Shown here in pieces: positions 17,259-22,300 of a stretch of DNA of 34,120 bases. Each line of letters begins with the position of its first letter. Position 1 is the first letter of the stretch. The translations under genes and the position numbers were made by a program. The DNA is from Planctomycetota bacterium (GTDB lineage Bacteria > Planctomycetota > Planctomycetia > Pirellulales > Thermoguttaceae), in the NCBI GenBank assembly GCA_029550925.1, contig JAKPGL010000123.1, positions 1 through 34,120 of the forward strand, read 5' to 3'. A model generated the notes under the pieces. That model searched no databases and was not told the origin of the DNA. It was given only the letters and a program-made list of their open reading frames with translations.

Positions 17259-18182
17259 TTGGGGACGCTAGGCCGCACGTTTAGCCCTTTTCTGCCCAAG
17301 GGACCATCTGCCTCAGGCCGGTCTGGCCCACTCCCCCAATTCCTTACACCCGAATGGGCCGATTTTATTGATCCTAAAGGCCGGTTGATTCCCAAAGAAA
17401 CCCTGCAGGCGGAATCGCCCACGGATCGGGCCAATCGCCGCCGGAAAGTGGACGAGCTTTTGGCCCAGCGTCAGCGGGCCTTTCAGGCCGTTGCCAGCAT
17501 GGGGTTGCCGCCCAGCACCCCACCGTCCCCGGGAGGCCATGAACAAAGCAGTCTTTCCAAAAGTAAACCTCCAATTTACTCCAAGCTATCTCCTGAAAAT
17601 AAACCACTTGTTTCCGCCGAAAAGACGGCCCGAGAAGTTGAATTCTCTATCTGCAAAACAGAATCGGCCATTGTCCACGAAAGAATAGAGTATGGAATTC
17701 TATTGGACGAAAACGGAATTGTTCTTTGGAAACAACAAGGAACAGAATCATCTGTCCGGTTTACTCCAAAGCAGTTAGCAATGATGCCTGGAAGAGTCTT
17801 GACTCATAATCACGTACCCGCATATGGGACCCATCCTACGTTTTCAAAGGCGGATGTAAAACTGATGATCGAAAGGCAATTGAAACAGATTCGGGCAGTT
17901 ACTCCAAAGTATCGGTTTCTCATGTCGCCTACTAGACCGTTGCCTCAAAGTGAACAGGCAAGAAAACAATTAGCAACAGAAGTAACTGCTGCTTTTCAAA
18001 CCTACTTTTATCAACTTATGGAACCTAAACGAAACCATTTGGAAAAACAGGTAAAACGTGGTAAAATGACTTTCGAAGAGTACAAAAGACGTTATATAGA
18101 AATAGCCGTAGAAACTGCTCATCTAGCTTGGTCGCACACCGCGGAACAATATGGTTTCTTCTATAAAAGAGAAAAAAGATGA
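17259..18182 (+). CDS. THNH-motif phage-head/toxin-like protein
   Basis: 307 residues from a TTG at 17259; the true start is uncertain, as no good ribosome binding site exists and the first 28 codons lie in repeat C1. The N-terminal part (to about residue 93) is GC-rich and contains PEWADFIDPKGRLIP and a basic helix, RANRRRKVDELLAQRQRAF. From about residue 94 the DNA becomes clearly A/T-richer. That part holds a domain with EYGILLDENGIVLW, GRVLTHNHVPAYG (T182-H-N-H185), FSKADV and IRAVTPKYRF, then basic helices. This HNH(P)...FS..D arrangement is known to me from C-terminal domains of phage head-morphogenesis-type and toxin-like proteins; exact activity is unknown. The stop overlaps the next start (ATGA). 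It is probably horizontally acquired. Confidence 0.6.
   Translation: MGTLGRTFSPFLPKGPSASGRSGPLPQFLTPEWADFIDPKGRLIPKETLQAESPTDRANRRRKVDELLAQRQRAFQAVASMGLPPSTPPSPGGHEQSSLSKSKPPIYSKLSPENKPLVSAEKTAREVEFSICKTESAIVHERIEYGILLDENGIVLWKQQGTESSVRFTPKQLAMMPGRVLTHNHVPAYGTHPTFSKADVKLMIERQLKQIRAVTPKYRFLMSPTRPLPQSEQARKQLATEVTAAFQTYFYQLMEPKRNHLEKQVKRGKMTFEEYKRRYIEIAVETAHLAWSHTAEQYGFFYKREKR
17270..17344 (+). repeat. 75-bp repeat C, copy 1
   Basis: AGGCCGCACGTTTAGCCC...ACTCCCCCAATTCCT. It matches copy 2 (19206-19280) at 70 of 75 positions in the same orientation. It lies at the 5' end of the THNH-protein reading frame, which suggests that the annotated N-terminus of that frame is not ancestral. Confidence 0.8.
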
Positions 18183-18403
18183 CCGTGGAACTATTCAATC
18201 CTGAATGCGGTATCTGTAAACACATCCACCATGGGATGACGACGTGCGACGCATTTCCCAATGGAATTCCAGAGGAGATTCTTTGGGGAGGCCGGAGCCA
18301 CCAATCTCCCTATCCCGGGGATGGCGGAATTCAATTTAAACCAAGAGTTCCATTTGCGGAGAAAAAATCCATCGCACATTCCACAGGGACAGAAGAACGT
18401 TAA
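18179..18403 (+). CDS. small Cys-motif protein, partner of the THNH gene
   Basis: 74 residues, starting at an ATG that overlaps the preceding stop (ATGA), so translation is probably coupled. The protein opens MTVELFNPECGICKHIHHG with C-x2-C, then CDAFPNGIPEEILWGG, SHQSPYPGDGGIQFKP. I recognise the pattern C.AFP.GIP.eI..G..H..P.PGD.GI.F as a recurring small-protein family that I cannot name. The paired Cys/His residues suggest metal binding. Overlap with a toxin-like gene would fit an immunity or accessory role, which is inference. The DNA is A/T-richer than the flanking chromosome, like the second half of the preceding gene, so the two probably arrived together. Confidence 0.65.
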   Translation: MTVELFNPECGICKHIHHGMTTCDAFPNGIPEEILWGGRSHQSPYPGDGGIQFKPRVPFAEKKSIAHSTGTEER

Positions 18404-18476
18404 GTCGTCCCTATTGATTCAGACGGGACAGTGATTGTCTAAAGAAGGGCTTATATTTTTTTCAAGGAAGGACCAT

Positions 18477-18716
18477 ATGGCCGCGGAAAACGCAACCAAG
18501 GCCAAGGAAGGCCGACAGACGTCGGGGCTGTCATCGCCAAGGCCTGCGCCAGACGATCACAATAGCCGAATGCGGCAACTGGCCCACCAGCGACTGGAGC
18601 GGCTGTTCGACGAAGCGGTAAGCGCTCGGTTCTACGGCCGTGTGCAGATTGAAATCAGCTTCGAGAACGGTCGGGCCTTGGTGGTGCATCGGCGAATTGA
18701 TGGCGTCGATAAATAG
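18477..18716 (+). CDS. small DUF2292-like protein
   Basis: 79 residues from ATG 18477, chosen over an upstream start at 18435 because AAGGAAGG lies just ahead of it. A charged N-terminal stretch (MAAENATKAKEG) leads into a helix (RMRQLAHQRLERLFDEAV) and a compact beta region (RFYGRVQIEISFENGRALVVHRR, split here for description). The last part recalls small DUF2292-type proteins (G.v.i...nG.vv.i); the match is from memory and weak. Function unknown. GC content returns to the chromosomal level, unlike the two genes before it. The putative structured RNA follows. Confidence 0.6.
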   Translation: MAAENATKAKEGRQTSGLSSPRPAPDDHNSRMRQLAHQRLERLFDEAVSARFYGRVQIEISFENGRALVVHRRIDGVDK

Positions 18717-18769
18717 CCGCCTGCTCAGACCGCGGCGCTATGACCGGCAAGCTGCCGGGGGATGGTGCT

Positions 18770-18941
18770 GTGGGAAATTGTTGCCTCCATGGGGACTTGA
18801 CGCTTAGCTGCTTGCTGCATAGATTACTTATGGGGATGGGCTGCTAGGCCCATCTCAAGCAGGCGTCGGGTGTCGGAACAACCGGGCCCGGCAAAGTCTT
18901 AGGCGCTTGGAGTGCGCTTGGGATTTTGCCGGGCCTTTTTT
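18770..18941 (+). ncRNA. putative structured small RNA ending in a terminator
   Basis: A gene-free stretch that folds as one long interrupted hairpin. TTGTT (18778-18782) can pair with AACAA (18877-18881), GACGC (18799-18803) with GCGTC (18863-18867), CTGCTTG (18808-18814) with CAAGCAG (18856-18862), and GATGGGC (18835-18841) with GCCCATC (18848-18854). It leads into the strong terminator at 18885-18941. The long rod with internal bulges resembles 6S RNA in topology, but I cannot confirm a family. It could instead be the 3' untranslated region of the preceding gene. The 5' end is uncertain. Confidence 0.4.
18885..18941 (+). terminator. rho-independent terminator
   Basis: GGCCCGGCAAA (18885-18895) pairs with TTTGCCGGGCC (18925-18935), followed by six Ts. 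A smaller GGCGC...GCGCT hairpin occupies the loop. It terminates transcription coming through 18477-18880. Confidence 0.8.
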
Positions 18942-18954
18942 ATTTGTCCGTTCT

Positions 18955-18978
18955 TTTTGTCAGACCGACTTGACAAAA
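18955..18978 (+). promoter_or_regulatory. operator-like inverted repeat
   Basis: TTTTGTCA (18955-18962) and TGACAAAA (18971-18978) form a perfect 8-bp inverted repeat with an 8-base spacer. It lies 13 bases before the start codon at 18992. It could be a repressor site or a small hairpin; there is no regulator gene next to it. Confidence 0.4.
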
Positions 18979-18991
18979 GAAAGGGCCACGG

Positions 18992-19336
18992 ATGGCAGAA
19001 CGTCCCACCAAGCGAGAAAACGGCGTGGATTTCCCGGCGGAAGCCTACGCCTACACGCCGGATCCGGAAAAGCCAAGCACCTGGAAACTGCGGTTGTGGG
19101 AGGACCCGGAAAAGAAGGAGACCCCGCGGCAAGTCGGCATGGCCATTGCCGCCCTCGGCCCCGGCGGATTCCGCGGCAACAGGGTGGAAAGACCTGCCCA
19201 AGATAAGGCCGCACGTTTAGCCCTTTTCTGCTCAAGGAGCCATCTGCCTCAAGCCGGTCTGGCTCACTCCCCCAATTCCTACTCACCACACGCCCCCCTC
19301 GCCCTGGCGGGAGGCTCCCGCCGTCCCTATTTTTGA
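18992..19336 (+). CDS. phage-type small protein with repeat-derived C-terminus
   Basis: 114 residues from ATG 18992, preceded by AAGGG. Residues 10-70 (DFPAEAYAYTPDPEKPSTWKL, split from RLWEDPE, and IAALGPGGFRGNRVE) match a recurring phage-associated motif, Y.pDpekPSTWKL...ALgpGGfRG..V..P, found in short proteins or prohead-protease-linked domains. The usual ending, a basic helix of the type LP.VK..IR.AW, is absent. From about residue 72 the sequence is encoded by repeat C copy 2 and then by low-complexity DNA to the stop at 19336. The gene therefore looks truncated and fused to repeat sequence, and may be a decayed remnant. The frame stays open, so it could still be expressed. Confidence 0.55.
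   Translation: MAERPTKRENGVDFPAEAYAYTPDPEKPSTWKLRLWEDPEKKETPRQVGMAIAALGPGGFRGNRVERPAQDKAARLALFCSRSHLPQAGLAHSPNSYSPHAPLALAGGSRRPYF
19206..19280 (+). repeat. 75-bp repeat C, copy 2
   Basis: Second copy of the repeat at 17270-17344, same orientation, five mismatches, spaced 1936 bp. It begins inside the phage-type gene at 18992 and supplies part of its C-terminal coding sequence. On the minus strand both copies read through a peptide with PDR.EADG and RKGLNVRP, a repeat-encoded reading frame rather than a real gene. Confidence 0.8.
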
Positions 19337-19399
19337 GGAAACCGAAAAAATAAACTGGGCTTTTCCCGGGAGGGATGGCGGATTTAGAATAGACACAGC

Positions 19400-22300
19400 A
19401 TGACAGTCGCGCTATCGGCTTCGGCCCGGCCCGGCCAGCTTCAGGAGTTGGTCGGACGCCTCGAGCGGCACGAAGGCTTCGACCAGGTGGTTGCCAGCCT
19501 CCGGGCGGGGCAGGCAGCTACTTTGGACGGAGTCTGGGGTTCGGCGTGCGCGCTGGCGGCGGCGGCTCTCGCCGCCCACGCTCCCGGACCTCTTCTTGTC
19601 CTTACCGCCCAGCCGGAAGAAACCGAAGATTTCCTAGAAGACCTGGACCTATTCCTTCCCCCAGACCAGGCCCCCCGGGAACAATTCCCTGCTCTGGAAC
19701 ATCTGCCCGACGAAAAGACCGCCCCGGACGAATTTTTCGGCCAGCGATTGCGGGTGCTCAACCGTCTCCGGGGGGCAACTGCTCCGAAACTGATCGTTGG
19801 CCCTATCCAGGCCCTGCTCCAACCCGTCCCGGAACCCTCCCTCCTGGAAGCCCACAGCCGCACGATTCACGTGGGGATGACGCTGGAAATGGAACATCTG
19901 GTGGAATGGCTCCAGGCCGAGGGCTTCCAACGGATGACCGCGGTGGCGTTGCCGGGCGAGTTTTCGGTCCGAGGGGGCCTGCTTGATCTGTTTCCCCCCG
20001 ACGCGGAAGAACCGCTCCGCATTGAATTCTTCGGCGATCAGATCGAGTCCATCCGACGGTTCGAGGTGGCAAGCCAACGAAGCGTCCAACCGGTGGAAAG
20101 GGCGACGCTCACCGGGCTGTTGGCCACAGAAAACGCCCGGGGGTATTTGACCGATTATCTGCCGGAAACGGCTTGGGCGGTGATGGTGGAACCGGGCGAA
20201 CTAGAACGCATCGGCCAGCAATATCTCCAGCGACTCCAAGGGGTGGAAAAGCTTCATACCTATTTAGAGGTTTTGCAACGGCTGATCCGATTTCCGTCGG
20301 CGACGATTTCGGCGGTGGCGGCCAGTTCCTTGGAGACCACGTGTCGGCTGAAGATCGAATCGGTCGAGCGGTTTACCGGCGATATCCACCGAGTCCGAGA
20401 AGAATTGGACGCCGTTGGGGCGGATCAGCAGGTCTATCTGGTCTGCCCGACGGAGGCGGAGATCGACCGGCTCAGAGAACTTTTCCAGGAAAGTCGATTA
20501 GCCAGGGAAGGTCGGCTGCAATTGCTGCTGGGTCGCCTGCACCGGGGATTTCGGTTGGTTCCGGACCGGGTGGTGCTGGTTTCTAGCGGCGAGCTTTTCC
20601 AGCGGGAGGAGATTCGTCGCCCGGCGGCCCGGCATCTGGGCAAGGTGATCGACAGCTTCCTGGAGTTGCGGGAAGGGGAGTTGGTGGTTCATGTGGCCCA
20701 TGGGATCGCCCGGTATCGGGGCCTGCAATTGTTGGAGAAGGACCGGCAGGTCGAAGAACATTTGGTGCTGGAGTTCGCTGAGGGAACGAAACTTTATGTT
20801 CCTACCTCCAAAATCGGGCTGGTGCAAAAATATGTAGGCGGTACGAAGGCCCGACCCCGATTGGCCAAACTGGGCGGTCGGCTATGGGCCCGGCAAAAAA
20901 AGGCCGTCGAACAGGCCGTTACCGATCTGGCCGCCGAAATGCTCCACATGCAGGCCAAACGCGCCGCCCTGCCCGGCATCCGGTTTCCGCCGGACAACCA
21001 ATGGCAACAAGAATTCGACGCCTCGTTCCCCTATGCGGAAACGGCCGACCAATTGGCCGCCATCCAGGCTGTCAAACAAGATATGCAGTCCTCCCGACCG
21101 ATGGATCGGCTCCTGTGCGGGGATGTGGGCTACGGCAAAACCGAAGTGGCAATGCGGGCCGCCTTCAAAGCCGTCTGCGCCGGCTACCAAGCTGCCATCC
21201 TCACGCCGACCACCATCCTGGCCGAACAGCATCTGCGCACCTTCACCAGCCGAATGGCCGAGTTCCCGGTCCGCATCGCGGTCCTCTCCCGATTTGTGCC
21301 CCGGCGTCAACAGGACCAAATCCTCGAAGACCTGGCCGCCGGACGAATCGACATCATCATCGGCACCCATCGGCTGGTGCAGCCGGATGTGCGGTTCCAC
21401 AACCTAGGACTCGTGATCATCGACGAAGAACAGCGGTTCGGCGTAGAACTGAAAGAGCGGTTCAAACGGTTCCGAGAAATGGCCGACGTACTGACCATGA
21501 CCGCCACGCCCATCCCCCGCACCTTGCACATGGCCTTGGTGGGTCTGCGAGACGTATCCAACCTGCAAACGCCGCCGGCGGAACGACTGGCGGTGGAAAC
21601 TCGTGTCTGCCGATTCGATCCCGAACTGATCCGTCATGCGGTGCTGCGGGAACTGAACCGGAACGGCCAAATTTTCTTCGTCCACAATCGGGTGGCGGAC
21701 ATCGAGGAAATAGCCTATCAGCTTCAGCAGATTGTGCCGGAGGCGTCGCTGCGGATCGGACACGCCCAGATGTCGGAAGACCACCTCGAACGAGTGATGC
21801 TCGATTTTATCGACCATCGGTTTGACATCCTTTTGTGTACCACCATCATTGAAAGCGGCCTGGACATCCCGAACGTGAACACTATTTTCATCAACGAGGC
21901 GGATCGGTACGGCCTGGCCGACCTGCATCAGCTCCGAGGCCGAGTCGGCCGGTATAAACATCGGGCCTATTGCTATCTGCTGATCCACCCGGAACGGTAC
22001 ATTTCGCCGAATGCGGCGCGGCGTTTGCGGGCCGTCGAAGAATATAGCCACCTGGGGGCCGGCTTTGCCCTGGCCATGCGGGACCTCGAAATCCGCGGGG
22101 CCGGGAACATCCTGGGCCGGGAACAAAGCGGCCATATTGCGATGGTAGGCTATGAACTGTATTGCCAACTGCTCGAACAGGCCATTGCCCGACTCAAGCG
22201 CCAGCCGGTCAAAACGCCGCTGGAAGTGGATATCGATCTGCCGGGGGCCGCCTACCTGCCCAGAACCTATGTGCCCGACATGCGACTGAAAATGGACCTT

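Follow-up and report, generated by a model that had tools for sequence, protein, structure and literature searches.

Attenuators of the BglG/SacY/LicT type are controlled by an RNA-binding antiterminator protein acting at a RAT hairpin. The element described here resembles them in having a small bulged leader hairpin that overlaps the 5' arm of a terminator, the two structures being mutually exclusive, but differs in sequence, loop and target, the latter being sugar genes there and phage head genes here. No RAT-like family scored at threshold in the Rfam scans of the window, of ten phage loci and of 18 further loci, and we know of no BglG-type protein for the phage element. The late region of phage lambda consists of the promoter pR', the 6S leader RNA and the terminator tR', where Q acts through DNA and the polymerase. 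A promoter, a short leader and a strong terminator before late genes, beside a small phage gene, are common to both arrangements; no Q-like protein is known here, and the present element has a conserved competing hairpin. In the LoaP system, a leader hairpin makes the polymerase pass an intrinsic terminator; the LoaP hairpins have UNCG tetraloops and, in the schematic described, lie apart from the terminator (PMC12691694).

The element is a so far unnamed attenuator-like RNA, situated in related phages mostly just before head genes. On balance, we think it probable that it is a transcription attenuator, with an antiterminator competing against a terminator, in the leader of the phage head (late) operon. 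In the literature searched we recognised no antiterminator/terminator pair at phage structural genes; one may be in print elsewhere.

The window, that is, the whole analysed stretch of planctomycete DNA (34,120 nucleotides), had been annotated at 18770–18941 as carrying a structured RNA with a strong intrinsic terminator. This was borne out: the stretch has a predicted folding energy of −90 kcal/mol, whereas its shuffles average −61.6 (z −7.10, with none of 200 as low), and a 22-bp stem is followed by a T run. The terminator (18885–18941, plus strand) is formed by a perfect stem, 18885–18906/18914–18935, with a loop of 7 and a U run; the stem has four G-U and no A-C pairs on the plus strand, as expected of a hairpin kept as plus-strand RNA. 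Much of the fold signal comes from the terminator, as without it z is −2.96 for 18770–18884 (a value reached by 4 of 300 shuffles) and, for 18797–18884, −4.16 (reached by none of 300), the ends having been chosen after the fact. The statement that no reading frame explains the stretch also holds for ORFs of at least 80 aa: three touch it (18899–19201 on the minus strand, 18907–19206 and 18912–19220 on the plus strand), and none covers its first 129 bases. The only frame there with relatives is that of P0002 (18992–19336).

The conserved core occupies 18865–18941 and includes, besides the terminator, a hairpin absent from the first-pass annotation. In the window this antiterminator hairpin (18865–18892, plus strand) consists of GUCGGGU, the bulged G18872, UCGG, the loop AACAA (18877–18881), CCGG and GCCCGGC, with 11 pairs, of which the inner 8 are conserved; the consensus is GGGU-R-YCGG-AACAA-CCGR-GCCC, where R is the bulged purine, and the loop is AACAA in most elements of the first group considered below. 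The terminator's 5' arm begins with the very bases that serve as the hairpin's 3' arm, so the two structures exclude each other. Two features expected of a transcription attenuator in general are present, namely, bases shared with the terminator (18885–18892 in the window) and conservation of the competing hairpin.

The annotation instead stressed a long rod (18797–18877, plus strand, by folding). Its hairpins are real (z −7.1), including GATGGGC/GCCCATC at 18836–18855, but the rod does not seem to be the conserved part. Moreover, its 5' arm starts at 18797, exactly where a promoter-like site, TTGACG-17-TAGATT (18797–18825, plus strand), begins, the only one found in 18300–19450; a transcript from this site would lack the arm. 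No rod was noticed when related phage loci were read by eye, and we set it aside as the functional shape. An alternative pairing, of 18717–18724 with 18859–18866, was likewise set aside.

The host genome is 4.9 Mb long. The RNA is flanked by P0001 (79 aa) and P0002, and mfd follows downstream. Phage likeness starts at about 17346 and stops at about 19204, exactly within a pair of 75-bp direct repeats; hence, judging by the sequence, approximately 1.86 kb of phage head-gene DNA in the planctomycete genome contains the RNA. The left (17270–17344) and right (19206–19280) copies of the repeat are 93% identical, and no third copy is found in the genome at E ≤ 0.001. The pair exactly frames the fragment, resembling a very long target duplication. 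In each of two congeneric genomes, the 1.5 kb preceding mfd contains nothing resembling the RNA. In an earlier search of relatives 9 of 60 matched, and besides the window itself these matches were only stretches of 20–33 bases. A host small RNA conserved across the family was rejected, as blastn against 119 family genomes (E ≤ 1e-4) yielded the window as the sole match and nothing in the 118 others. The RNA of the window is probably a relic of a bacterial virus, because the gene that it would control, P0002, breaks off after 71 codons. The suggestion of an island-encoded regulatory RNA or an mRNA tail comes near: the site is a phage fragment, and the element is most readily understood as a regulated leader belonging to the gene that follows.

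The likeness to 6S RNA, also suggested in the annotation, found no support. A covariance-model search against Rfam yields no family at the gathering score in the window, and in 18600–19060, where a cut-off of E 10 lets five matches through, 6S (RF00013) is still absent; these five (Srn266, three miRNA families and CRISPR-DR9) were taken as chance. The large central bubble of 6S is not seen either, the core being a bulged 8-pair hairpin with a five-base loop, followed by the terminator. We leave next to no probability for the 6S RNA of the host: the RNA is hairpin-rich, long and ends in a strong terminator, and the 6S model finds nothing elsewhere in the genome at E ≤ 0.001, but it lies in a phage fragment, its relatives are phages, and it is seen neither before mfd in the two congeneric genomes nor by blastn in the 118 other family genomes. 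As far as covariance models allow, 6S is already refuted. The same model matches only 7 of 40 sampled genomes, 4 of them over the cut-off, and none here; hence planctomycete 6S is either divergent or missing.

At the gathering score, Rfam gives nothing in ten phage loci except two tRNAs, and nothing in 18 further loci. The nearest family is P35 (RF01677), a small RNA of Pseudomonas, which likewise has a small GGAAC hairpin directly before a terminator; its scores, 28.6 bits for L165 and 31.5 bits (E 0.0012) for L169, are far below its gathering score of 70 bits, hence these elements are non-members. P35 is not listed among the matches with E up to 10 in 18600–19060, and a 30-base piece of its consensus retrieves nothing from 50,697 phage records. 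If our reading is right, this is a conserved RNA family with no Rfam entry at threshold, lying before the head genes of many uncultured phages.

From about its residue 30, TPEWADFIDPKGRL, onwards (17346–18182, plus strand), P0004 is, by reading, what remains of the 3' end of a phage minor-head gene, with an extra C-terminal domain; the PEWADFIDPEGR boundary is also found inside the Mu F-like protein of the phage contigs L057, L059 and L060. No HMM from Pfam, PHROG or NCBIfam matches P0004. The C-terminal domain (ORF 17259–18182) contains THNHVPAYGTHPTFSKAD, which is reminiscent of the metal-binding motif of JAB/RadC-like proteins. A small cysteine-containing ORF, read by eye, follows (18179–18403, plus strand; phrog_33375, function unknown, E 5.4e-6).

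P0001 (18477–18716, plus strand) is related, through its alignment relatives, to DUF2292-like proteins: of the 26 relatives in the alignment, 8 match Pfam DUF2292 (PF10055) at E ≤ 0.1, the best at 6e-5. P0001 itself matches no named family, and no Pfam model up to E 5, DUF2292 included. Its AlphaFold model is a helix with a beta hairpin (mean pLDDT 79.4); the fold has no PDB match at E ≤ 0.001, and the profile none at E ≤ 0.1 (best 0.58). The predicted structure says nothing about RNA binding. Neither P0001 nor one DUF2292-like protein of the second group, described below, has a match among phage records.

P0002 (18992–19204, plus strand; phrog_19463) comprises the N-terminal 71 residues of a phage head gene, the frame running beyond homology to 19336. 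These residues are 83% identical to a gene of the phage contigs L057–L060 and 85% identical to a gene of genome G114. No model gives a function for the P0002-type gene, phrog_19463 being of unknown function; from the gene position we infer a protease or a scaffold. The N-terminal domain also occurs in enterobacterial phages, Salmonella phage 9NA and its relatives (27 records), being up to 63% identical among the matches listed, and there the gene precedes capsid genes. In phage 9NA no such element is seen in the stretch that was read, nor by the covariance model R2 (see below).

In L060 and L059, the genes for terminase, portal, a Mu F-like minor head protein, a small protein and the P0001-like protein are followed by an intergenic stretch with the terminator, and then by the P0002-like, decoration-like and capsid genes. 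The succession of a P0001-like gene, a strong terminator and a P0002-like gene is common to all of L057–L060, and the order is the same in L147/L149 and L063. In L057 (3556–4320) a further gene separates the P0001-like gene from the terminator, the latter being kept together with about 75 bp before it. The same order is retained in L154, L156, L157 and L160, where the P0002-family gene has no N-terminal domain, and the intergenic stretches share with the window a block of sequence immediately preceding the terminator. Head-gene tails of this kind may be mobile as cassettes: in genome G024, the cassette in L141 (360–2004) starts in the same way, PEWEDFIDAEGRL, continues with two more ORFs and a P0001-like gene, and stands in a host setting without the RNA.

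A first-group pattern, derived from the window, L157 and L160, gave 14 matches in 13 virus contigs, and a terminator with a T run was present in 12 matches from 11 contigs, mostly flanked by a P0001-like gene upstream and a P0002-family gene downstream. Two matches, in L171 and L173, have no terminator on reading and were taken as chance. L163 and L167 lie on the same contigs as L157 and L160, L164 and L170 share one sequence, and L165, L166 and L175 are closely related; hence independent lineages are fewer than contigs. In a less circular check the upper stem was left free (NNN on each side of the loop), which yielded 19 matches in 18 contigs, the 12 earlier ones and seven new (L206–L212). 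All 12 matches with the terminator have complementary triplets (CGG/CCG or UGG/CCA), compared with one of the seven matches lacking it on reading, three of which share one sequence; these seven were also taken as chance. The motif TTGACGCTT...ATTACT, common to the window and L060, was dropped, and its four pattern matches were not used.

The model R2, from which the window and the loci identified by protein similarity had been left out, was searched in 97 sources. It finds the window (50.7 bits), L154, L155, L156, L157, L160 and L177, and misses L057–L060 and L063, which are found by R1, a model built with these loci. R1 has no match at L147/L149, though a promoter and a terminator are present there, nor in L061/L062, their second loci L152/L153, L158, L159 and L161, despite their P0002-family genes. 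Among 392 genomes of the phylum R1 matched seven (E ≤ 0.01), and two are credited, that of the window and L177 of genome G334; the matches in G145 (L180), G269, G378, G381 and G444 were taken as chance, those in the last four after reading. Weak or antisense matches (L200–L203) were not used. The L177 hairpin, GGGU-A-UUGA-AACAA-UCAA-GCCC, has the same shape with a different upper stem. A DUF2292-like ORF precedes this element, and the gene behind it we take, by reading alone, for the small terminase subunit. In total, 14 of the 17 folded first-group elements are preceded by a DUF2292-like gene.

Aligned with the related elements, 18865–18941 proves both conserved and covarying, the opposite of the lack of conservation and covariation named in the annotation as grounds for abandoning the RNA. 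In the alignment A6 (16 sequences, 15 distinct) the pairs of the hairpin and the terminator are kept in 94.5% of cells, with nine double changes. For the longer hairpin in the 15 distinct sequences, 99.2% of cells are paired, with the reservation that GGGCCC is a palindrome and some pairing of GGG with it comes easily; seven double-changed cells fall in four pairs, a result seen in none of 500 shuffles, and the pair-type count is reached by 5 of 500. Sliding the pairing partners abolishes the covariation of the hairpin.

Two U-G pairs of the hairpin are nearly invariant, which makes sense only if it is the RNA of this strand that folds. This bears on the very remote chance that we see a DNA-level element, a packaging or recombination site that is palindromic by accident. 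The head/packaging region would be a suitable place for such a site, and direct repeats bound the fragment in the window; however, the U-G pairs, as well as the balance of G-U and A-C pairs in the terminator stem, favour RNA of one strand, and the elements read share the orientation of the next gene.

A second, AT-richer group of elements emerged from the best 80 of 102 P0002 loci, where 23 distinct elements with an overlapping terminator were identified. The regular expression for this group, CGG-ARGAA-CCG or UCG-ARGAA-CGA with outer pairs GCY/GGC, partly fixes the inner stem, and under it pairing holds in 97.8% of cells over the six pairs, while 14 cells are changed on both sides versus 4.3 in shuffles; the numbers of double-changed pairs (2 vs 1.9) and of pair types (3 vs 3.9) do not exceed those in shuffles. 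A DUF2292-like ORF lies upstream in 15 of the 18 second-group loci looked at. The two groups may have either common descent or only a common plan.

The first 34 nucleotides fold into a hairpin in all 37 elements of both groups, with a five-base loop in 35, and the full sequences fold into the terminator instead; in the window the energies are −48 kcal/mol for the full fold and −16 kcal/mol for the hairpin. The overlapping shape is found at 25 of 33 motif-bearing terminators in the loci examined versus 3 of 21 others, and two of these three exceptions (L081 and L111) look like the same element. This proportion bears on the main rival to the attenuator, passive partial read-through. Here a plain terminator with fixed, incomplete read-through would set the ratio of head proteins or insulate two transcription units, and the upstream hairpin would only aid termination or RNA stability. 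The terminator is indeed the strongest part of the element, it stands between the minor-head/DUF2292-like genes and the capsid genes, where a change in the expression level is plausible, and L060 has space for a downstream promoter. Nevertheless, we regard this explanation as rather unlikely, as a plain terminator needs neither the bulged purine, nor the AACAA loop, nor a 5' arm covarying with the terminator's own 5' arm, and the overlapping shape is rare at other terminators.

The terminator sits just before a phage gene of the same direction. In the second group the distance from the end of its stem to the start codon chosen for the gene is 2–54 nucleotides in 12 of 19 cases and 106–321 nucleotides in the other seven; the former leave no space for a promoter, so that only read-through would bring transcription to the gene. 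L060 has a promoter-like site between the terminator and the gene, therefore read-through is not forced there.

Upstream promoter-like sites, within 130 nucleotides, precede 9 of 18 elements (the window, L147, L063, L165, L166, the first copy in L169, L174, L177 and L204), compared with 0.94 on average and at most 3 in 200 shuffles; of these elements, L165 and L166 are related to each other, and R1 does not match L147. The sites in L165 and L166 have the same −10 box (TAGATT) and spacing as that in the window. The other nine elements have no such site in the 130 nucleotides upstream, and in L154, L156, L157 and L160 TTGACA is instead found where the P0001-like gene begins.

In the window, L063, L147, L165, L166 and L204 the promoter-like site and the terminator lie within 60–125 nucleotides, an arrangement that would also suit a small phage RNA made for its own sake. 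As with lambda 6S RNA, which is transcribed from pR' as far as tR', the short terminated transcript would then itself be the product, acting in trans or merely marking an idle late promoter. We find this alternative distinctly unlikely given the fixed place of the element directly before a gene of the same direction, which in the 12 second-group cases is too close for another promoter, and given the coincidence of the conserved bases with the terminator's own arm, which suits a switch in cis.

The 85-kb phage G540 (L169, L204) carries three copies of the element on one strand, at 45249, 43761 and 36090, each preceding a gene that is structural-looking by reading. Only the first copy follows a DUF2292-like gene; the third has a site TTGGCA-18-TAGAAT in front and no DUF2292-like gene. 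Several copies in one phage might indicate a processive antitermination site of the nut or put type, whose hairpin would recruit a factor or act directly on RNA polymerase, the adjacent terminator being only the first of several to be passed. The small hairpin with a five-base loop also recalls boxB. Still, we hold this to be highly improbable, since the overlap between the hairpin and the terminator arm marks a competing antiterminator and is not needed by nut and put sites, and each copy comes with its own terminator.

For the attenuator, the anatomy, the overlap and the covariation lead us to infer transcription, read-through and a factor as follows. RNA polymerase starting at the upstream promoter (18797–18825 in the window) would make the antiterminator hairpin first. 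If a factor held this hairpin, the terminator could not form, and the polymerase would enter the head genes; with no factor, the RNA would refold into the far stabler terminator, leaving a short RNA of about 110 nucleotides. Such a factor is needed because the terminator easily wins thermodynamically. It would be a phage protein, perhaps the DUF2292-like protein encoded alongside, which by position only is the best candidate. More tentatively, and with considerable doubt, one may imagine a widespread two-part phage switch, in which DUF2292-like proteins would bind the bulged five-loop hairpin behind their own gene and thereby open the terminator into the head genes. The same protein/RNA pair would then operate in phages as unlike each other as the planctomycete phages and the second group, explaining the function of these small proteins. 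If the attenuator reading is right, the element gains a candidate partner protein from a family without known function, and the timing of capsid production in such phages would follow a simple rule that can be tested.

Finally, an inverted repeat, CTTTTTGTCA / TTGACAAAAG, noticed by eye at 18951–18979, lies between the terminator and the start of P0002, and could be a candidate operator.
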